From Bacteroidaceae bacterium (GTDB taxonomy: Bacteria; Bacteroidota; Bacteroidia; Bacteroidales; Bacteroidaceae): DNA of 48,820 nucleotides. The stretch's first letter is position 1; each line of letters opens with the position of its first letter. Both the position numbers and the translations under genes were made by a program. The notes under the pieces were generated by a model. The model worked only from the letters and a program-made list of their open reading frames with translations. It was not told the DNA's origin and searched no databases. Where the stretch lies: positions 1 to 48,820 of the forward strand of contig JAKSLJ010000025.1 in the NCBI GenBank assembly GCA_024401275.1, given 5' to 3'. Positions 32,503-48,747 of this stretch are shown here, piece after piece.

Positions 32503-34860
32503 ATGAAGAAAATCTTATTGATTCTCGTTGCAGCAATGCTCTGCCCTGGCGCATTCGCAGCAAAGAAGAAAAAGCAGACTGCCGCAAAGCCTGTCCTCAC
32601 TCAGGCTGAGTACAACGCTCGCGGCGAACAGATTGTAAAGGAAGCCATTGGCAAGCTCACTCTCGCAGAGAAACTTGCACAGCTCCAGTCGGGTTCAATC
32701 TACCTTATCGAGCAGATGTCTGACGCAGAAGGTAACCTCTCTACAGACTCTCTCAAGAAGTATTACCCTAACGGTTTGGGACTCATGAACATTGACTTCG
32801 CTTTGAGCAAGACTCAGGAGCGCTATGTCCGTCAGCTCAACTCGCTCAAGGCTTACAACGCTTCACTTCCCCACTCTATTCCAATCCTCTTCATCGGTGA
32901 AGGTCTCCACGGACTTATGGGCAACAACGCCACAGTCTTCCCACAGGCAATTTCGCTCGGTTGTTCGTTCGATACAGCGATGGTGAAGAAGGTTTACGAC
33001 GTTACAGCTCTCGAAGCTCACTCTCGCGGTATCAACATGTTCTTCTCTCCTATTCTCGACCTCGCTCGCGAACCTCGTTTCGGCCGTATCGAAGAGATGT
33101 ACTCGGAAGACCCTTACCTCTGTGGAGCACTTGGTTCTCAGGCAGTTCGTTCTTTCCAGAAGATGGGTAGCAACGGCGAACTCTACATGGCAGCAACGCT
33201 CAAGCACTATATGGGTCACGGTCAGGTGGAAGGTGGACGCAACGTAGCTGCTTATCCTGGCAACTACAACGACCTTCTCAACAATCACGCCCTTCCTTTC
33301 GAGATGGCTATCAAGGCTGGAACTGCTTGCGTGATGCCTGCTTACAACGATGTTTGCGACATTCCTGTAACCGTCAACAAGTTCATGCTTCTGGACATTC
33401 TCCGCGGCAAGCTTGGTTTCAAGGGTGCAGTAATCTCCGACCAGAACGCAGTTGACGTGGTAAACACTGTTAACCACATCGCACCTTCTCTCCAGGCAGC
33501 TGCCGAAATGGCTATCAAGGCTGGTATCGATGTTGACATCATCGGTTCTGAGGGAACATACCAGATGCTCAAGGAATCAGTTGAATCTGGTCGCGTACCA
33601 ATGTCAGTCATCGACAACGCTCTCTACAATGTCTTCATGGTGAAGTATCGCCTCGGACTCTTTGACGAAGACAAGCCAGCAGACATCAAGTATATGCAGT
33701 CGGTTAACAACTGCGCAGCTCACAAGGCTGTTGCTCGTGAGGCAGCACAGAAGACAATGGTTCTCCTTGAAAACGACGGCATTCTCCCACTCGATGGCAG
33801 CAAGAAGCTTACAATAGCTGTCATGGGACAGAATGCTACAGAGCTCCCTTACGGCGGTTACACAGCAGAACCAAAGTTCCCTGGCGTGACAATTCTTGAC
33901 GGTATCAAGAACTATGCCAAGGGCAAGAACATTGAGGTTCTCTACTCTCTCGGTTGCCAGTACAGTATGACTCCTGGTCAGTGGTGGGGCAACAACAATA
34001 ACGACCTTCAGACAAAGGAAGTCAACGACCAGCTTCTTAAGGAGGCTATCGAGGTTGCGAAGAAGGCTGACGTGGTTGTTCTCTGCGTAGGCGAAAACGA
34101 AAGCTTCTGCCGTGAGGCTTGGGGCGAAATCTTCCACGTAGGCGACCGTGACGATCTCCACATGCTCGGCTATCAGGATGAGTTCATCGAGGCTATCAAG
34201 AAGGTTGGCAAGCCTGTTGTGACAATGGTTACTGGCGGTCGTCCTCTTCTCCTCAACAACGCAAAGGCAAACTCAAACGCTCTCGTTCAGTGCTTCTACA
34301 TCGGCGAGGAAGGTGGTAATGCAGCTGCAGACCTTCTCTTCGGCGAGAAGAACTTCGAAGGCAAGCTCTCTGTTTCAATGCCACGCTCTACAGGTTCGCT
34401 TCCTTGCTACTACAACCGCAAGCCAAACCGCTTCCGCTCTTACATCTACGAGCCAACAGAGGTTGACGAGCACTGTCTCTATCCTTTCGGCTACGGCAAG
34501 AGCTACTCTACTTTCGAAGTTTCTGCACCATCAGCAAGCAAGCAGAAGTATTCTGCTGATGAGGAAATTAAGGTTACTTGCAACGTAAAGAACACATCCA
34601 GCAAGGATGGTGCTGAAGTTGTTCAGCTCTACATCCACGATGAACTTTCAAACAGCGTTCGCCCAGTAAAGGAAATGCGCGGTTTCCAGAAGGTTTACCT
34701 CAAGGCTGGCGAATCAAAGGATGTTGAGTTCACACTCTGCAAGAACGACCTCATGTACTACGACTCTACCCTCGAGAAGGTCTTCGAACCAGGAGAGTTC
34801 AAGATCATGGTTGGAAACAGCAGCGTAAATGTCAAGGACTGCATGATTACTGTGGAATGA
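32503..34860 (+). CDS. bglX: Glycoside hydrolase family 3 beta-glucosidase (BglX-like)
   Basis: An exported hydrolase for beta-linked glucosides, 785 residues from ATG 32503 (signal peptide MKKILLILVAAMLCPGAFA). The 22 upstream codons in the open frame overlap the promoter and are rejected. The barrel domain carries ATVFPQAISLGCSFD, PILDLAREPRFGRIEEMYSEDP, KHYMGHGQVEGGRN and the nucleophile region GAVISDQNAVD (Asp of SD). The second domain (about 400-640) contains MVLLENDGILPLD and GENESFCREAWGE, and the C-terminal fibronectin III-like domain KDGAEVVQLYIHDELSNSVRPVKEMRGFQKVYLKAGESKDV. DUF3943 gene follows after four bases. A 27-codon exact-protein copy of its C-terminus occurs at 36469. Confidence 0.95.
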   Translation: MKKILLILVAAMLCPGAFAAKKKKQTAAKPVLTQAEYNARGEQIVKEAIGKLTLAEKLAQLQSGSIYLIEQMSDAEGNLSTDSLKKYYPNGLGLMNIDFALSKTQERYVRQLNSLKAYNASLPHSIPILFIGEGLHGLMGNNATVFPQAISLGCSFDTAMVKKVYDVTALEAHSRGINMFFSPILDLAREPRFGRIEEMYSEDPYLCGALGSQAVRSFQKMGSNGELYMAATLKHYMGHGQVEGGRNVAAYPGNYNDLLNNHALPFEMAIKAGTACVMPAYNDVCDIPVTVNKFMLLDILRGKLGFKGAVISDQNAVDVVNTVNHIAPSLQAAAEMAIKAGIDVDIIGSEGTYQMLKESVESGRVPMSVIDNALYNVFMVKYRLGLFDEDKPADIKYMQSVNNCAAHKAVAREAAQKTMVLLENDGILPLDGSKKLTIAVMGQNATELPYGGYTAEPKFPGVTILDGIKNYAKGKNIEVLYSLGCQYSMTPGQWWGNNNNDLQTKEVNDQLLKEAIEVAKKADVVVLCVGENESFCREAWGEIFHVGDRDDLHMLGYQDEFIEAIKKVGKPVVTMVTGGRPLLLNNAKANSNALVQCFYIGEEGGNAAADLLFGEKNFEGKLSVSMPRSTGSLPCYYNRKPNRFRSYIYEPTEVDEHCLYPFGYGKSYSTFEVSAPSASKQKYSADEEIKVTCNVKNTSSKDGAEVVQLYIHDELSNSVRPVKEMRGFQKVYLKAGESKDVEFTLCKNDLMYYDSTLEKVFEPGEFKIMVGNSSVNVKDCMITVE

Positions 34861-36468: not shown

Positions 36469-36552
36469 AAGGTATTCGAGCCAGGAGAGTTCAAGATTAT
36501 GGTCGGCAACAGCAGCGTGAACGTCAAGGACTGCATGATAACGGTGGAATAA
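36469..36552 (+). pseudogene. 27-codon C-terminal remnant of a second GH3 gene
   Basis: KVFEPGEFKIMVGNSSVNVKDCMITVE and a stop: all 27 residues equal the C-terminus of the GH3 enzyme 1.7 kb upstream. The DNA differs at nine synonymous positions and uses TAA in place of TGA. Upstream of it the frame soon stops. So a paralogue that was under protein-level selection has lost everything except its end. Confidence 0.8.
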
Positions 36553-36635: not shown

Positions 36636-36681
36636 AAAACTCCCCGAATCAGAGAAAACAACTCCGATTCGGGAGTTTTTT
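36636..36681 (+). terminator. Terminator before the WYL operon
   Basis: AAAACTCCCCGAATC (36636-36650) and GATTCGGGAGTTTT (36666-36679) pair with one bulged C, followed by T-rich sequence. It isolates the following operon from the GH3-DUF3943 unit. Confidence 0.85.
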
Positions 36682-36750
36682 GTATAAAAGAGTCATTCTT
36701 GTAGCCTTTTACATAAAAATTTCACTGCAAACTCACTTTTTTCATAGGTA

Positions 36751-36785
36751 TGACACGATTTGTCACACCCTTAGTCGTACCTTTG
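36751..36785 (+). promoter_or_regulatory. Promoter and candidate WYL operator
   Basis: A -7 box TACCTTTG (36778-36785) lies 49 bases before the WYL ATG. About 17 bases upstream, overlapping the expected -33 region, is the inverted repeat TGACA-CGATT-TGTCA (36751-36765). WYL regulators of defence systems bind palindromes over their own promoters, so autoregulation is a reasonable guess. Confidence 0.5.
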
Positions 36786-36833
36786 CACCCAGAAAATCGT
36801 AAATCGCAAATCAGTAAATCGTAAAATTCAAAG

Positions 36834-37733
36834 ATGAACGTCATCAAAAAATATATCTGGCTCCTACAGAAACTCCAACAATACGGAGAACTGACACAAA
36901 AGGATTTTGACCGTCTTTGGCAAAACAGCACCCTCAGCTATGGCAAGCCTTTGGACTCACGCAACTTCCATCGTTGGAAAGAAGCTGCTGAAGACTTGTT
37001 TTCCGTTGACATAGAGTGCGTCTGTTCACAGGGTCAATACAGATACCGCATCAAGAGAAACAGCAATGATGAGGTAACAAACTGGCTGCTTCACACCATG
37101 ACTGTCAGCAACCTTTTGGAAGAGTACAAGGGGCTGAACGACTCTATCATCCTGGAGAAGGTTCCTTCTGGCGAATCGCATCTGGGAACTATTCTCGATG
37201 CCATTAAATATGGTAAGCAGCTTATGGTTACATATCACAATTTCCATCGCGAGGAAGCCAATCCTCCGGCTCTGGTGAATCCTCTCTGCGTGAAACTGTC
37301 CGACAGGCGATGGTATGTGCTTGTTGACTTTGCCGAAAAGGAGAACTACCGCCGCATCATGGCGTTGGACAGGATTGTTCATATAGAACTGCAACACACA
37401 TCCTACACCATGCCCGAGAACTTTGATGCAAAGACGTATTTCAATGACAGCTACGGCATTACGGTCATGTCCGACGTTCCGACGGAAACCGTTATATTGA
37501 AAGTGCCGGCATCGGCTGCACCATATCTCAGGGCATTGCCTTTCCATCCCTCACAACGGGAAACAAGAAAGGAAGGAGACTTCGTATTCATGGAGTATCG
37601 CCTGAAGATAACAGAAGAACTAGCCTTCGCATTACTGAGACATGCAGTAAGAAGCGAGATAATAGAGCCTATCTCACTTCGCAAAAAGGTAAAGGAACTC
37701 GCAAGACAAATAATCGATAAACATAACCTCTAA
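36834..37733 (+). CDS. WYL-domain transcriptional regulator
   Basis: A 299-residue regulator. The N-terminal about 65 residues (IWLLQKLQQYGELTQKDFDRLWQNS..DSRNFHRWKEAAEDLFSVDI) look like a winged helix. The WYL domain is at about 120-190 (LDAIKYGKQLMVTYHNFHREEANPPALVNPLCVKLSDRRWYVLVDF..RIMALDRIVHIEL). The signature Trp-Tyr appears as RRWYVLV. A WCX-like C-terminal part follows (TVILKVPASAAPYLRALPFHPSQRE). Such proteins control BREX, CBASS and other defence operons, usually as ligand-sensing repressors. The next gene follows after 14 bases and a third after 18 more, so it heads a three-gene operon. Confidence 0.88.
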   Translation: MNVIKKYIWLLQKLQQYGELTQKDFDRLWQNSTLSYGKPLDSRNFHRWKEAAEDLFSVDIECVCSQGQYRYRIKRNSNDEVTNWLLHTMTVSNLLEEYKGLNDSIILEKVPSGESHLGTILDAIKYGKQLMVTYHNFHREEANPPALVNPLCVKLSDRRWYVLVDFAEKENYRRIMALDRIVHIELQHTSYTMPENFDAKTYFNDSYGITVMSDVPTETVILKVPASAAPYLRALPFHPSQRETRKEGDFVFMEYRLKITEELAFALLRHAVRSEIIEPISLRKKVKELARQIIDKHNL

Positions 37734-37747
37734 ACAAAATCTTAATT

Positions 37748-38266
37748 ATGGAAAAAGTTTTCAAGCCTGAGTTTGATGGCAAGGGTATCTGGATGTATTG
37801 GCCAGACGACAACGCAAGAATGTTCAAGGAGAATGTAGAAAAGGGCTTCATGGCATGCGGTCTTCCTGATGCAGACATCGACCTTGGCGACCTTGACCTA
37901 ATCGGTGTCAGAAGAATAGAGGCTACCGTTGATGCTGAGTACGGAAAGCCTAATCCTGCGGCTGTAAAGCTAATGACAGACATCTACGCAAAAGTTGACA
38001 TTGGCGACTTCATCATTGCACGCAACGGCTTCGACACAATCGTTGGCATCGGCATCGTCACAAGCGACTATTACTACGACGAAGAGCAGCCACTGTTCAA
38101 TCATTGCCGCAAGGTGGAATGGATAAACACTGACACTTGGACGTTCCCTGAAGAACTGAAGCGAGGCGGCAAGTGGCACAGAGTAACGCTCATCGACCAG
38201 CACTATCGCTATATCGCAGAGGAACTGATCACCGCCATCTGCGAGGGCAAGAGCGAAGAGGAATGA
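37748..38266 (+). CDS. EVE/PUA-like protein related to McrB N-terminal modules
   Basis: A 172-residue cytosolic protein. The centre (AVKLMTDIYAKVDIGDFIIARNGFDTIVGIGIVTSDYYYDEEQPLFNHCRKVEW) has the pattern of EVE-like domains (GDxVIAxxGxxxIxGIGxVxSDYxYDEE...HxRxVxW) fused to McrB-type AAA proteins, where such domains are thought to read modified bases. Here the module stands alone, followed by a helical C-terminus (IDQHYRYIAEELITAICEG). The start of the protein (FKPEFDGKGIWMYWPDDNARMFKENVEKGFMACG) also resembles this class. No NTPase is nearby. It lies between a WYL regulator and a dual-nuclease gene. Substrate reading is inference. Confidence 0.65.
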   Translation: MEKVFKPEFDGKGIWMYWPDDNARMFKENVEKGFMACGLPDADIDLGDLDLIGVRRIEATVDAEYGKPNPAAVKLMTDIYAKVDIGDFIIARNGFDTIVGIGIVTSDYYYDEEQPLFNHCRKVEWINTDTWTFPEELKRGGKWHRVTLIDQHYRYIAEELITAICEGKSEEE

Positions 38267-38284
38267 AGAGCGGCAATCAGTAGC

Positions 38285-40531
38285 ATGAATTTTGAAGAAA
38301 TGAAGTCACAAAGTCCCAAGCATAGTAGTTCAAACACCAGTGGGGCAAACTCTCACAAAGCATTCATGGATGCTGCCAGGAAATATCAAGAATCCATTGT
38401 CCGTCAGTGGAGCAAGCAGTTCGGCGGCGAATGCATCTGGGACGAGCGACCTAACCATGGCGTGTGGTTGAAGGATGAGTACGCTCTGAAAGGACTTGTC
38501 TTCTATGAGGGCTTTCGTGACGAGATAATGGGTTTGTATCGTGCCGGTCATACAAAGATCGGCATGAACCTGCTCAACAATGCCCTTAGAAGCGAGCATA
38601 TCCCGTACAACTTGTTCTTCCCGATGATGAAGAGCCAGAACAAGCTTGCCACAAAAGGTTTCTTCAACGAGCTGCTTGGCACTGACTGCATAGCCGAAAT
38701 CCTTGATGTCAAGATAGAGCACGCGCCAAAGCCTCCAAGAAACTACCTGAACGACGGAACATCGTTTGACGCTTTCGTACACTACAAGCACAAGGACGGC
38801 AGCAAGGGAGCCATTGGCATAGAGGTGAAATACACCGAGCGCGAATACGCTATTGGCAATACGGAATACATGAACACTCATGACGAATCCGGGAACGTAA
38901 GGCTTTGCCATCATTATGAACGAGCAACGCGTGGTTCTGGCTATTACGTTCCGAACAGCGACGCACTACTCGTCACTGACAATCTCAGGCAGATCTGGCG
39001 CAACCATATCCTTGGAGCGTCTATGGTATTGCATGGTGACATTCGCCATTTCTCTTCCGTAACCATCTTCCCTGATGCTAATCCGCACTTCCACGAAGCA
39101 ACAGCGGAGTATCGCAATGTACTGACGGACCAAGGCTTGTCAACATTCCTTACCGTCACCTACGAGAAGATGTTTGAGATCCTTACCCGCCATTTCCGTA
39201 CCGCAGAGCACCTCTCATGGATTGACTATCTATACAAGCGCTACCTCTTCGGCGCGGAAATGCCAAAGGTCACTCCGATAGCAGCAAGTGAAGTTGCGAA
39301 GGATGGTTTCCTTTCTGCAAACATAAAAACGGATTTCATAGGCAAGACAACTGCCATGCCGGTAGCGAAAACACTCAATCGTGGTGTTTCCCTGGCACTG
39401 ATAGTTGCATTCAAAGACAGTCCTATCTATGCACTCTATAAGCAGCATACTGACGAGCTGATGATCTGCATTCGCAACAATTACATTAATGTATATTATC
39501 GTTTGAATAACATCGCAGAAGTACGTCTTGTAGGCAATGGTGAAATCAGTTGCGGCATACATCCGTATTTTCTCAGAAGAAACGAGAAGCACAATGTCGT
39601 TCTTACTGGACAAGAAATACAACGACAGATAGTTGACCGTTACGAAGAAATAAAGCATCTTGCAGAGAACAAAAAAAACACTACGTTGGAAAAGGTCTCG
39701 CAGCAGAAGCTTGTCATGCAGAACAACGCCAGTCCTTCTTCTAAATGGTTCTGTGTAGATGTTGAGTGGGCACGCTCTTTCAACAATCAGGCGGAAAAGG
39801 ATTCGTGCATGTCTTCTCGTATGGACATCATAGCGATCTCAAAGGAAGCGCCTCATCGGGTAGCTGTCATAGAACTCAAGTACGGAAGCAAGTCGCTCGA
39901 CGGAAGTGCTGGCGTGATGAAGCATATACAAGACTTCAAGACGCTCAAGGAAGGCAGCACGCACAATGGCACTCGCATAGATTATTACGACGGCATGTGT
40001 ACCGACATCTGCAACATTCTTGAGGCATACGACGCTTTGGATTTAGAGTTGCCGGATTCACTGAAGCGACTCACCAAGGAGCAATTCGCTACGGCTCCCG
40101 AGTTCTACATAATGACAATGGACAACAATGCGTCATCCTCCCGTGGCTTTTCTCCAAAGCAGACCATGGCAGCCTACCTGTTCTCCCCGAACAGCAGGAA
40201 CTACAACGCATGGGGGTGCCGCCAACCAGCACGCCATAATGTCCAGGACAACCTTGGGATAAACGTGTTGGATCTATCATCAGCTCTACCAGTGACCTTT
40301 ATCTTCTCAAGACAGGATGCATCTAACATAGACATCAATGATATATTGGAGGATAGTAGCTACGAAATAATTCGACCTAAGGCAAGCACTTATCTGTATG
40401 ACAACACACAGAAAGCGGCTAACACCCCAACCTATCTCCAAGAGAAGAAAGATCAGACCAGCAACAACATAGCCATCTATCTCATTGCAGCGCTAGCATT
40501 ACTCGCTTTGCTGATTTTCCTAATACTTTAA
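38285..40531 (+). CDS. Dual PD-(D/E)XK-like nuclease with C-terminal membrane anchor
   Basis: A 748-residue protein. Region 1 (about 70-290) resembles PGN_0703-type restriction nucleases: LATKGFFNELLGTDCIAEILDV, then SFDAFVHYKHKD and GAIGIEVKYTE give Asp162 and Glu180-x-Lys182. Region 2 (about 490-670) repeats the pattern with SRMDIIAIS and VAVIELKYGSK, giving Asp514 and Glu530-x-Lys532. The last about 22 residues (NNIAIYLIAALALLALLIFLIL) are a membrane helix. Two nuclease cores plus a tail anchor is an unusual arrangement. It follows the EVE-like gene after 18 bases and is closed by a terminator. Probably DNA cleavage in a defence system; cleavage and target are not shown by the sequence. 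Confidence 0.7.
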   Translation: MNFEEMKSQSPKHSSSNTSGANSHKAFMDAARKYQESIVRQWSKQFGGECIWDERPNHGVWLKDEYALKGLVFYEGFRDEIMGLYRAGHTKIGMNLLNNALRSEHIPYNLFFPMMKSQNKLATKGFFNELLGTDCIAEILDVKIEHAPKPPRNYLNDGTSFDAFVHYKHKDGSKGAIGIEVKYTEREYAIGNTEYMNTHDESGNVRLCHHYERATRGSGYYVPNSDALLVTDNLRQIWRNHILGASMVLHGDIRHFSSVTIFPDANPHFHEATAEYRNVLTDQGLSTFLTVTYEKMFEILTRHFRTAEHLSWIDYLYKRYLFGAEMPKVTPIAASEVAKDGFLSANIKTDFIGKTTAMPVAKTLNRGVSLALIVAFKDSPIYALYKQHTDELMICIRNNYINVYYRLNNIAEVRLVGNGEISCGIHPYFLRRNEKHNVVLTGQEIQRQIVDRYEEIKHLAENKKNTTLEKVSQQKLVMQNNASPSSKWFCVDVEWARSFNNQAEKDSCMSSRMDIIAISKEAPHRVAVIELKYGSKSLDGSAGVMKHIQDFKTLKEGSTHNGTRIDYYDGMCTDICNILEAYDALDLELPDSLKRLTKEQFATAPEFYIMTMDNNASSSRGFSPKQTMAAYLFSPNSRNYNAWGCRQPARHNVQDNLGINVLDLSSALPVTFIFSRQDASNIDINDILEDSSYEIIRPKASTYLYDNTQKAANTPTYLQEKKDQTSNNIAIYLIAALALLALLIFLIL

Positions 40532-40538
40532 CAATCCA

Positions 40539-40572
40539 AAAGCCTCAAGCTTCATTTGAAACTTGAGGCTTT
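40539..40572 (+). terminator. Terminator of the WYL operon
   Basis: AAAGCCTCAAG pairs with CTTGAGGCTTT over a 12-base loop and is followed by GTTTT. Confidence 0.85.
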
Positions 40573-40613
40573 GTTTTGGTTCTGCGTCACTTTAGGCAAC
40601 ATATAGGCGAATT

Positions 40614-43425: not shown

Positions 43426-43731
43426 TTAGAAAACAGCCGAAATCTTGCGGATATTCTGCAAATGTTTTATTAGAGAAGGCTTACGACGTGTCAACGCCAT
43501 ATCATAGCGCATCTGCATATTCAGCAGGAGTTCAGGGTTGATGCCTAAAGACGCTTCCACCATTAATGCTAAATCACTTGACACGGCACGTTTACCATTC
43601 AGCACTTCATTAAGGGTAGAATACGAGATATTCAAAGCTTCAGAGAAACTCTTCTGGGTTATGTTCCTGCTTTCCAATTCTTCTTTCAGCACATCACCTG
43701 GATGAGTGGGTAGTCTATCTATTGTGTTCAT
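43426..43731 (-). CDS. higA: HigA-family antitoxin
   Basis: A 101-residue DNA-binding antitoxin from ATG 43731 (MNTIDRLPTHPGDVLKEELESRNITQ). The XRE helix-turn-helix is at about 20-65 (ITQKSFSEALNISYSTLNEVLNGKRAVSSDLALMVEASLG), with the HigA-type HPGDVLKEE start. It neutralises the toxin encoded just upstream and represses the operon. The start 12 codons upstream would overlap the toxin gene and is less likely. The gap to higB is 7 bases; toxin before antitoxin is the HigBA order. Confidence 0.88.
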   Translation of the reverse strand: MNTIDRLPTHPGDVLKEELESRNITQKSFSEALNISYSTLNEVLNGKRAVSSDLALMVEASLGINPELLLNMQMRYDMALTRRKPSLIKHLQNIRKISAVF

Positions 43732-43738
43732 ATAAGTC

Positions 43739-44056
43739 TTATTTATAGTGGTTTGTAATATCTTCAATTGTACATAATGTTAATGAGTTGTTTCCATCTT
43801 CCTGCTTTTGGACTTTAAACACCAAGCGATAGTGATAGTCTATTCTTATGGAGAATGTATCCTGTCTGCCTTCCAGCGCTTCAAAGTTCAAGGAGTTAAA
43901 GACGAAAAGATCTTCTATTCTCGTTGCAGCCATCAAAGTATCTATTCTTTTTTGATACTTTGTAACCACAGGTGGAGCAAAACGATATTTCTTGTTCTTA
44001 CACTTACCCTTTACATACAATTCTTCCAGATATTCTTTGTCGTATATTATTTGCAT
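43739..44056 (-). CDS. higB: HigB/RelE-type toxin
   Basis: A 105-residue ribosome-dependent mRNA interferase-like protein (MQIIYDKEYLEELYVKGKCKNKKYRFAPPVVTKYQKRIDTLMAATRIEDLFVFNSLNFEALEGRQDTFSIRIDYHYRLVFKV). The layout, with a basic C-terminal strand pair SIRIDYHYRLVFKV, is that of plasmid-maintenance HigB toxins. A TTG start two codons upstream is possible, but ATG 44056 is preferred. A minus-strand TAATTTTG box (44090-44097) lies upstream. Confidence 0.85.
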   Translation of the reverse strand: MQIIYDKEYLEELYVKGKCKNKKYRFAPPVVTKYQKRIDTLMAATRIEDLFVFNSLNFEALEGRQDTFSIRIDYHYRLVFKVQKQEDGNNSLTLCTIEDITNHYK

Positions 44057-44089
44057 AGACAAGTGTTATGATAAATATGTATGATGGCG

Positions 44090-47088: not shown

Positions 47089-48629
47089 TTAAGAATCGCT
47101 GTCAGATAGGTCGAAAAGTGGCTTGACTGCGAGGTGCTTCTCCGGCAAGAAGAGTGTCTTGGTGAAGTAAGTCCCGTTCTCTGGCAATCTTACTCTTATT
47201 GTCGTGATGGTCTTTGCAGCCTCAAGCACCTTATCGACACTCATCCCAATTTTGTTTATGGCAATGAGCCGCTCTAATTCCTTATATATCTTGTAAGCGA
47301 TGAAGCATATGCAGACATGCGCCTCAATCCTTCGTTCCGTAAAGTGAAACATCGGACGCATCTCCAGAGTTCCCTTTGAAACACGGAATGCACGTTCCAC
47401 TACCCAAAGTCCATGATACTCAGCAATGACACGCTCTGCGTCAAGATCCGTATTGGTTATGAGCCCTTTAGGCCATCCCACTTGCAGTCCTCTGCTATCT
47501 TATCCTCGCTGATGACGACTTCTATGTCCTTGCTGATTTCAAGAAACTTGTTGTAGCCGCGCTTGTTCACCTGATTCTTCGTAATTCGTCCGCTCTTGTA
47601 GGCTTTCCTCAACCAGGCAATTCCTCGGTCACGGTTGTAGGCATCCTTCTTCGCACGTTTGTCCGAATAACTGACGATAAGCCGTTCTCCATTCTCACGC
47701 TTGTAGTTGTAGCAGGCTTTGTCAACCTTCTCTAGCGAGAGTATCCATTGCTTCACACCTGCACTCTCGCTCTTGATGCGAGCTCCAAGAATGTATTTGT
47801 AACTAGCCTCCTGTAGCAAAGTGACATTGTTCTTGTTCATCAATCCCGAGTCTGCCACAACGACAAAGTCTTTACCCAGATTGAAACGCTGCTTGAAGTC
47901 ATCTATCATCGGTATCATGGTGAAACCTTCGTACTGACTGCCGTTGAACAGAGAGTATGAAAGCGGATAGCCTCCTTCTGACACCAGCAGGCCGAGTACG
48001 ACCTGTGACTCTGCCGTCTTGCCATCCTTTGAAAAGCCAGGCTCACGCAGTACATCCGTCTGTGCTGTCTCAAAGTAGAGCGTCGTCACATCGTAGAACA
48101 TCAGGCCAATCTTGCCACCGAACAGTTTCCTGGTGTGCTCCACGCTGATCTGCTGTGCAAGCTCCATCTGGGTATTGTAGAGCTTGTCCATGTAGCGGTA
48201 GATGTGGTTGAGGTCAACATCCTCGTCGTAATATGACTTCAGGTAATCCACGGTGGCAAGCTTACTCTTGGGCTGTGACACCCTTGCTATCACCAGATGA
48301 CGCAGAATCTCATCGGGAATGCGGTTGAAGCCGATGCTGTCATAGACTTGATCAAGCAGAAACTGGGTGCCGTTTATCAACACATTATCTATATAGCTTA
48401 GGAAACGCTCCGTCTCCTCGACTTCCTTTCCCTTGCGGTCACCGAAGTCTAGTTCTTGCTGACCGCCGAATGAACGTATCCATGTTGCTGCCTTATCGCA
48501 CAATGAATTTATCTCCTCTTCGGATGTAGAGGAGCCAAATGACTTTATTTCTTTATACTTTCCACTCGCTTTGCTGACCACTACCACACTTGTAGAGCCT
48601 GAACGGTTATGTTTCTTACGTACGTACAT
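47089..48629 (-). CDS. IS1634-family transposase, split by a -1 frameshift
   Basis: The first frame (48629-47457, 390 residues, MYVRKKHNRSGSTSVVVVSK) contains two catalytic Asp of a DDE transposase: FYDVTTLYFE and VVADSGLMN. It stops soon after CKWDGLKG. The second frame (47481-47089) carries LITNTDLDAERVIAEYHGLWVVERAFRVSKGTLEMRPMFHF with the catalytic Glu. Joined by a -1 shift at CTA-AAG-GGC (47463-47471), the product is about 513 residues and reads KWDGLKGLITNTDL without a gap. A_AAG is a known slippery site in other IS families. So this is either programmed frameshifting or a single-base loss. The -7 box TACCTTTG lies four bases before the ATG, which would give a leaderless message. An upstream GTG start is less likely. 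Confidence 0.8.
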
Positions 48630-48633
48630 GGTG

Positions 48634-48641
48634 CAAAGGTA
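48634..48641 (-). promoter_or_regulatory. Transposase promoter -7 box
   Basis: TACCTTTG on the minus strand, four bases before the transposase ATG. Initiation about 5 to 7 bases downstream would fall at the start codon. Confidence 0.5.
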
Positions 48642-48747
48642 CACATTTTTTCGCTTGCGCCACCCAAAAACACCCAATTATTTTGCGTAACTCGTTGATT
48701 TTCATTCTGCGCTATCTAATGGCACAAAAAAGTGATGAAGTCAGGAT

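Follow-up and report, generated by a model that had tools for sequence, protein, structure and literature searches.

A WYL-headed operon joining an McrB-type reader domain to a putative two-nuclease protein: a candidate type IV-like restriction system in Bacteroidaceae

The closest described relatives of the three-gene operon analysed here, which was found in a Bacteroidaceae genome, are the EVE-PD(D/E)XK type IV enzymes, predicted, together with EVE-YafY(WYL) operons, by Bell et al. (2020, PMC7641849), who also note how common EVE-McrB proteins are among Firmicutes and Bacteroidetes. Printed precedent for joining a reader to a nuclease comes also from the EVE-HNH enzymes (PMC7641849; PMC7897488), among them VcaM4I, which embodies the principle with an HNH nuclease (PMC7897488), while BrxR is a known WYL repressor of a defence island (PMC9122601). 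Here and below these papers are drawn on as excerpts. The window, by which we mean the whole stretch of DNA analysed, is the entire contig C18 (48,820 bases) of the host genome (G000; 3.2 Mb, 91% complete). Its operon encodes a WYL-domain regulator, a 172-residue protein (P0002) and a 748-residue protein (P0003); we refer to domains of the P0002 type as domain A, to the two halves of P0003 as N and C, and to the loci and genomes compared by L- and G-numbers.

Based on sequence comparison, we propose with moderate confidence that this operon encodes a WYL-controlled, NTP-independent, modification-dependent (type IV-like) restriction system. Since EVE-PD(D/E)XK enzymes and WYL-EVE operons have been predicted in print (PMC7641849, excerpts), the operon extends a known type and is not wholly new. 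The first-pass annotation, which knew no named system with this layout, was to that extent too strong, and the reader moreover matches the first part of the PADLOC candidate PDC-S02; the nuclease, on the other hand, indeed has no PADLOC model at E values up to 5. Like the EVE-PD(D/E)XK enzymes, the operon would combine a PUA-like reader of modified bases with a PD-(D/E)XK nuclease and no NTPase, but its reader is an McrB-associated domain outside Pfam EVE and is encoded by a separate gene, and it adds a second nuclease-like domain (C) and a WYL gene in front. With the McrBC systems that carry domain A in the same genus (L103, L109, L054) it shares a homologous reader-like domain, whereas the AAA translocase and McrC are absent from it and its nuclease is PDDEXK_13 plus C. 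VcaM4I likewise has reader and nuclease on one chain, as do three relatives described below (L004, L032, L033), but its nuclease belongs to another superfamily, and each chain of the dimeric enzyme carries a single HNH domain (PMC7897488, excerpts).

Neither the operon proteins nor the ten other window genes scanned include a methyltransferase, an McrB AAA GTPase or McrC, and the first-pass statement that the operon has no McrB-type NTPase holds for all three of its proteins. The regulator of CBASS is presumably the WYL protein CapW. A WYL regulator leading a defence or nuclease operon is what the window has in common with the BREX (BrxR, PMC9122601, excerpts) and CBASS systems; the similarity of the window protein to their regulators is that of WYL-WCX proteins in general. 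Within the literature searched, which covers subscription journals thinly, no paper describes a WYL-domain A-two-nuclease layout, the names 'REase-ARP' and 'PGN_0703' do not occur, and no paper combines WYL, DnaQ, exonuclease and Bacteroid-; the searched passages of PMC12839542 contain nothing on a WYL-reader-nuclease layout. The genes and domains of the operon are as follows.

36834..37733, + strand: WYL-WCX transcription regulator, 299 aa (Pfam WYL 4.8e-9, WCX 3.4e-10)
37748..38266, + strand: stand-alone reader-like domain A (P0002), 172 aa, a homologue of an McrB domain by profile comparison (PADLOC PDC-S02 5.8e-7)
38285..40531, + strand: putative two-nuclease protein P0003, 748 aa (Pfam; conserved motifs)
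38459..39247, + strand: N domain of P0003, residues 59-321, putative active site D162 E180 K182 (PDDEXK_13 PF20796 2.5e-52; REase-ARP PF22558 3.2e-23)
39362..40384, + strand: C domain of P0003, approximately residues 360-700, nuclease-like, no Pfam match, invariant D492 E494 D514 E530 K532 H547
40469..40528, + strand: hydrophobic tail of P0003, 20 residues (729-748), from hydropathy; not seen in relatives

The three genes lie in tandem on the + strand with intergenic gaps of 14 and 18 bases and frames free of stops. P0002 was first described as a stand-alone EVE/PUA-like module of the kind found in McrB-type proteins, and the McrB relation proved sound while the EVE label did not: P0002 has no Pfam match above chance and no match to EVE (PF01878) at E values up to 5. 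Close-type copies of domain A (E below 1e-80, the next best match falling to 8e-25) occur in 4 of 398 genomes of the genus (the window, G185, G246 and G280), with L004, found via the nuclease, as a fifth. Distant-type copies occur in 22 further genus genomes and, besides the window, in 9 of 296 genomes of the phylum, and an McrB-type AAA domain lies in the same open frame for 28 of these 31 distant matches (the exceptions being L092, L094 and L117). Pfam AAA_5 exceeds its cut-off in four of the five such proteins scanned (L103, L108, L109 and L110) and falls below it in L054, and an McrC gene adjoins the McrB-type gene of L103 downstream. Comparison of the close-type and McrB-fused profiles gave an hhalign probability of 99.9% (E 1e-32, 130 columns); this match makes P0002 a homologue of an McrB NTPase domain.

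A second domain follows domain A in L103-L107 and L110, and in L110 it is recognized as EVE by Pfam. The idea that P0002 is itself the canonical EVE domain of McrB was rejected, because in L110 EVE occupies residues 363-486 and domain A residues 200-333. The two domains match weakly (50.6%), and since this likeness spans only 27 columns, we name P0002 'domain A of McrB, PUA/EVE-like' and not EVE. PDC-S02 matches P0002 at 5.8e-7 and the L004 protein at 9.2e-11, in both cases over roughly the first 120 model positions. P0002 and the three fusions reach at most position 135 of these 308-346-position models, so that there is no full-model match; the first third or so of the PDC-S02 models is domain A, and their remainder is unmatched by the proteins of the operon. 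Separately, L092:1414-2523 encodes a domain A-like protein with an apparent membrane segment and a PDC-S02 match of 2.5e-20, without an McrB-type AAA domain in its open frame.

Close-type domain A is found next to, or fused with, PDDEXK_13 in all four of the genus genomes that contain it, the window included. It is fused to N in L004 (860 aa, together with C), L032 (492 aa) and L033 (498 aa), and the two are adjacent genes in the window and L034. It was the nuclease search that first brought up L032-L034 and L004, but a domain-A search of the same 398 genomes returned no extra close-type copy lacking N. The fusion of reader and nuclease in three relatives suggests that the two act as one unit. 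Nonsynonymous divergence (dN) is higher in domain A than in N in all 10 pairs of the five loci (0.20-0.54 versus 0.12-0.21), a comparison made on dN alone since synonymous divergence (dS) is saturated and dN/dS thus unusable; such faster divergence of domain A is as might be seen for a specificity part. The first-pass annotation named co-occurrence of the three families as a check. Reader and nuclease do recur together, but the WYL-first order is weak: besides the window it appears only in L034 and L004, each with an incomplete WYL gene, that of L004 being a 94-residue piece at a contig edge with 31% identity over 80 residues.

Several neighbours of these relatives resemble restriction or mobile-element genes. 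A GmrSD_N gene lies downstream in L032, along with a second gene reading alike; the genes upstream of the pair in L034 include two apparent tyrosine recombinases and an apparent resolvase; and a single gene run in L054 encodes a domain A McrB-like protein, an McrC-like one (DUF2357-PDDEXK_7) and a divergent relative of PDDEXK_13. In L100 (2970-7488), C and N are located between hsdM (N6_Mtase 1e-100) and a gene reading as hsdS, that is, within a type I restriction operon. The neighbours in L032 and L100 are suggestive of a defence context, as single examples. Some part of P0003 is matched in 26 of the 398 genus genomes, a patchy distribution, and its nearest relatives among named records are from one uncultured Prevotella and one uncultured Bacteroidales genome. 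No relative of P0003, of domain A (profile A2) or of N (profile A4) was confirmed in viral contigs, and the only matches in phage and plasmid records (2 and 3 records respectively) were to the N domain, at 23-28% identity.

The two D..ExK motifs originally read in P0003 stand at the residues given and are strongly conserved. In the N alignment (A4), D162, E180 and K182 are present in every one of the 27 rows, the L034 row being a fragment that ends shortly past these residues, and the PF20796 profile together with the conserved D..ExK identifies the N half as a PD-(D/E)XK nuclease at the level of sequence. D514, E530 and K532 are invariant in 19 of 19 rows of the C alignment (A7), with rows down to 14% identity. 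Its invariant columns include D168, E170, D190, E206, K208, G210 and H223, corresponding to D492, E494, D514, E530, K532, G534 and H547 of P0003 (first-row numbering plus 324), and they follow the order expected of a PD-(D/E)XK site. The invariance of both motif sets places them beyond chance D..ExK matches. No Pfam match over cut-off was found for the C half in P0003 or in nine other rows scanned, P0003 had no match in PADLOC or NCBIfam at E values up to 5, and NCBIfam returned nothing for any of the three operon proteins at the same limit.

The hydrophobic 20-residue C-terminus of P0003 that was first read as a membrane helix is present, with a best Kyte-Doolittle mean of 3.14 over 19 residues. 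That these proteins are generally anchored in the membrane was rejected, however, since the tail is missing from all 23 related proteins (21 loci) that could be read to a stop codon, in which the highest mean anywhere is 1.63. Searching 60 genomes for the tail alone returned only the window, a result of little weight as few of these genomes contain any relative.

Relatives of the C half were followed in a census of 24 loci, that of the window among them (L038, which duplicates L037, was not counted), and a partner is visible in 21 of them: PDDEXK_13 in 11 and a metallo-hydrolase in 10. Fusions of C and N, with either domain first, are seen in the window, L004, L037, L039, L042, L047, L048, L051 and L052, and the two are adjacent in L049 and L100. 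In L041, L050, L067, L068, L096-L099, L101 and L102, C instead lies beside a homologue of the L096 metallo-hydrolase, which has Lactamase_B_2 and RMMBL above cut-off; one gene separates the two in L099, and in L102 a fragment of N is located at a distance of 4 kb as well. The three undecided loci are L005, which retains only the last 25 residues of N, and L069 and L128, where the sequence ends. Because many loci were found with the whole of P0003 as query, the census tilts towards N; a search of 393 genomes of the order with the C profile alone gave 11 matches including the window, of which 2 have N, 8 the metallo-hydrolase and 1 is undecided. C with the RMMBL-type metallo-hydrolase, accompanied by a WYL gene in L041, L050 and L099, is a candidate two-gene nuclease system for which we know of no name.

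A bolder proposal, which we put forward tentatively and consider somewhat less probable than not, is that the C half is the founding member of a nuclease family not yet described, which never works without a partner. That obligate partner would be either PDDEXK_13, as a fusion in either order or as a neighbour, or a metallo-hydrolase resembling RNase J, the two being interchangeable. In the lineage of the window, the resulting twin nuclease, placed under a reader shared with McrB, would then form a translocation-free type IV system with both cutting sites on one chain.

In the restriction system that we propose, the WYL protein would control the operon until it receives a ligand signal arising from infection or DNA damage. 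Domain A might then bind a modified base in incoming phage DNA, as expected of such a domain inside McrB; its homology to the McrB domain is documented above, and that it reads modified bases we infer by analogy. It would direct the two-site nuclease to the target, where both halves of the protein, PDDEXK_13 and C, each with its conserved motif, may cut, perhaps one strand apiece. A single chain could thus make a double-strand break without McrB-type translocation. As the type IV class requires, the operon holds no cognate methyltransferase, the methylase matches of the host being on other contigs.

A number of observations weigh against this proposal. With regard to the nuclease, the C half is called one from the conservation of its motif; the N and C profiles do not match significantly (hhalign 2.6% for A4/A7 and 0.2% for A4/A3), and although the A4/A7 alignment sets the catalytic residues of N and C in register, that alignment is itself not significant, while the better-scoring A4/A3 match is merely the N tail retained in the L005 row. 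Searches of the PDB with the reader, N and C profiles gave matches at chance level or none. The L032 and L033 proteins lack C, and the L034 contig ends before C could be seen. With regard to the reader, an EVE fold of domain A is not supported by Pfam at E values up to 5 and has the weak 27-column profile match in its favour; the close type is rare (4 of 398 genus genomes) and among the 296 phylum genomes occurs in the window only. No WYL gene is beside the pair in L032 and L033, and those in L034 and L004 are incomplete. The host has four PF00145 cytosine-methylase matches (contigs C2, C9 and C12), so a plain 5-methylcytosine (5mC) reader might attack self; the reader would therefore be expected, we guess, to spare plain 5mC in such contexts and to prefer phage-type modifications. 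Finally, the operon lies outside any evident defence island; the ten other window genes scanned are chiefly housekeeping or cell-surface genes, a HigBA pair being the sole nearby exception.

RNA is also a possible target, given the RMMBL-type partner in 10 of the 24 C loci and the proposals of RNA action for CoCoNuT systems (PMC11090510, excerpts). This bears on an abortive-infection or toxin-like alternative, in which the nucleases would hit the host's own DNA or RNA once WYL control is lifted, with domain A guiding or restraining them. RMMBL is an RNA-specificity domain, EVE domains are reported in toxin-antitoxin settings (PMC7641849, excerpts), RNA is the predicted target of CoCoNuT systems, and tight transcriptional control suits a dangerous product. 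None of the three genes is antitoxin-like, however, and the reader-nuclease fusion in three relatives fits targeting better than inhibition. We consider this alternative unlikely, if worth keeping in sight.

The first gene was rightly called a WYL regulator from the outset, as both WYL and WCX are above their Pfam cut-offs, and the protein matches solved WYL proteins at E 7e-4. Its homologues (E <= 1e-25) are present in 162 of 299 genus genomes including the host, which makes it a common regulator, but only G280 (L034) holds a close copy, with 70% identity over residues 106-299 and the N-terminal part not in frame. We read the neighbourhoods of the best 28 further loci listed (L123-L150). An RNase_T/DnaQ exonuclease homologue adjoins WYL in 9 of the 28, and ten other WYL neighbours scanned comprise GmrSD_N in four loci (L124, L129, L138 and L146), PDDEXK_4 in one (L123), DUF6946 in one (L128) and four without a match; L128 additionally bears the beginning of a C-family protein. 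WYL proteins of this group are thus regulators placed ahead of varied nuclease cassettes, and possibly a modular defence family of their own. A family of approximately 171 residues, its likeness judged by eye, was also seen near WYL, N or C genes (L043:8111-8626, L101:3273-3791 and L150:2-250), the copies in L043 and L101 having no Pfam match.

The DnaQ/RNase_T neighbours in 9 of 28 loci would suit a DNA repair or stress cassette, that is, a WYL-controlled damage response with nucleases and not a defence system, as would the lone N and C-N relatives near genes named by eye as Nudix, UmuC-like polymerase, RecD2-like helicase and GNAT. Set against these are the patchy presence in 26 of 398 genus genomes, the restriction and mobile-element neighbours at some loci and the McrB-type reader, and we regard this explanation as improbable. 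Least probable of all is a shared transcription unit only, in which the reader would be a passenger with a loose link to a WYL-controlled cassette containing a generic nuclease. In its favour, many different cassettes have a WYL homologue in front, and the pair in L032 and L033 has no WYL gene beside it; against it, reader and N go together in all four genus genomes that carry close-type domain A, as a fusion in two of them and likewise in L004.

The operon is bounded by hairpins, and the earlier reading of three closely spaced genes between flanking terminators was reproduced in its coordinates. Upstream (36640-36684) the fold has -16.4 kcal/mol (z -3.6) and downstream (40535-40582) -19.7 kcal/mol (z -4.4); none of 200 shuffled versions folds as well as either.

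36643..36673, no strand assigned: upstream terminator-like hairpin with a T run on both strands, arms 36643-36654 / 36662-36673 (sequence scan, folding)
36751..36765, no strand assigned: candidate operator, short inverted repeat TGACA-N5-TGTCA with 5-base arms, shorter than those that the repeat search reports, low confidence (read off the sequence)
36778..36785, + strand: candidate Bacteroidetes-type -7 box TAnnTTTG (match to the consensus)
40539..40572, + strand: downstream terminator hairpin, 16-base arms, 94% complementary (repeat search, folding)

The TTTG at 36759 is spaced 15 bases from the candidate -7 box, under the 19-21 bases that we take to be usual between TTTG and the Bacteroidetes -7 consensus, presumably TAnnTTTG. 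The ten further window genes scanned comprise a GH3 glycosidase, DUF3943, DUF3332, glycerol-3-phosphate dehydrogenase, a tRNA synthetase, the HigBA pair, a transposase and two matchless, secreted-looking products. Across 27 genomes, the downstream neighbour was found in one (the host itself) and the upstream DUF3943 gene in five including the host, leaving no flank pair to compare. An 82-nt direct repeat (34777-34858 and 36469-36550, 89% identical) consists of the 3' end of the GH3 gene, occurring again behind the DUF3943 gene as if DUF3943 had been inserted or the segment duplicated. The HigB-like toxin and its helix-turn-helix (HTH) antitoxin lie on the - strand at 43426-44062, about 3 kb 3' of the operon, and the transposase (47089-48677, - strand) is spread over two overlapping frames close to the end of the contig, possibly through a frameshift, with a DDE match in the larger frame.

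Taken together, the earlier interpretation of the operon is partly supported, and the C family with its two alternative partners is what is most likely new here. If our proposal is correct, a modification-sensing domain can part from McrBC and find new use alongside a self-contained nuclease with two sites, and several candidate cassettes in Bacteroidales would share C, a nuclease family so far uncatalogued.

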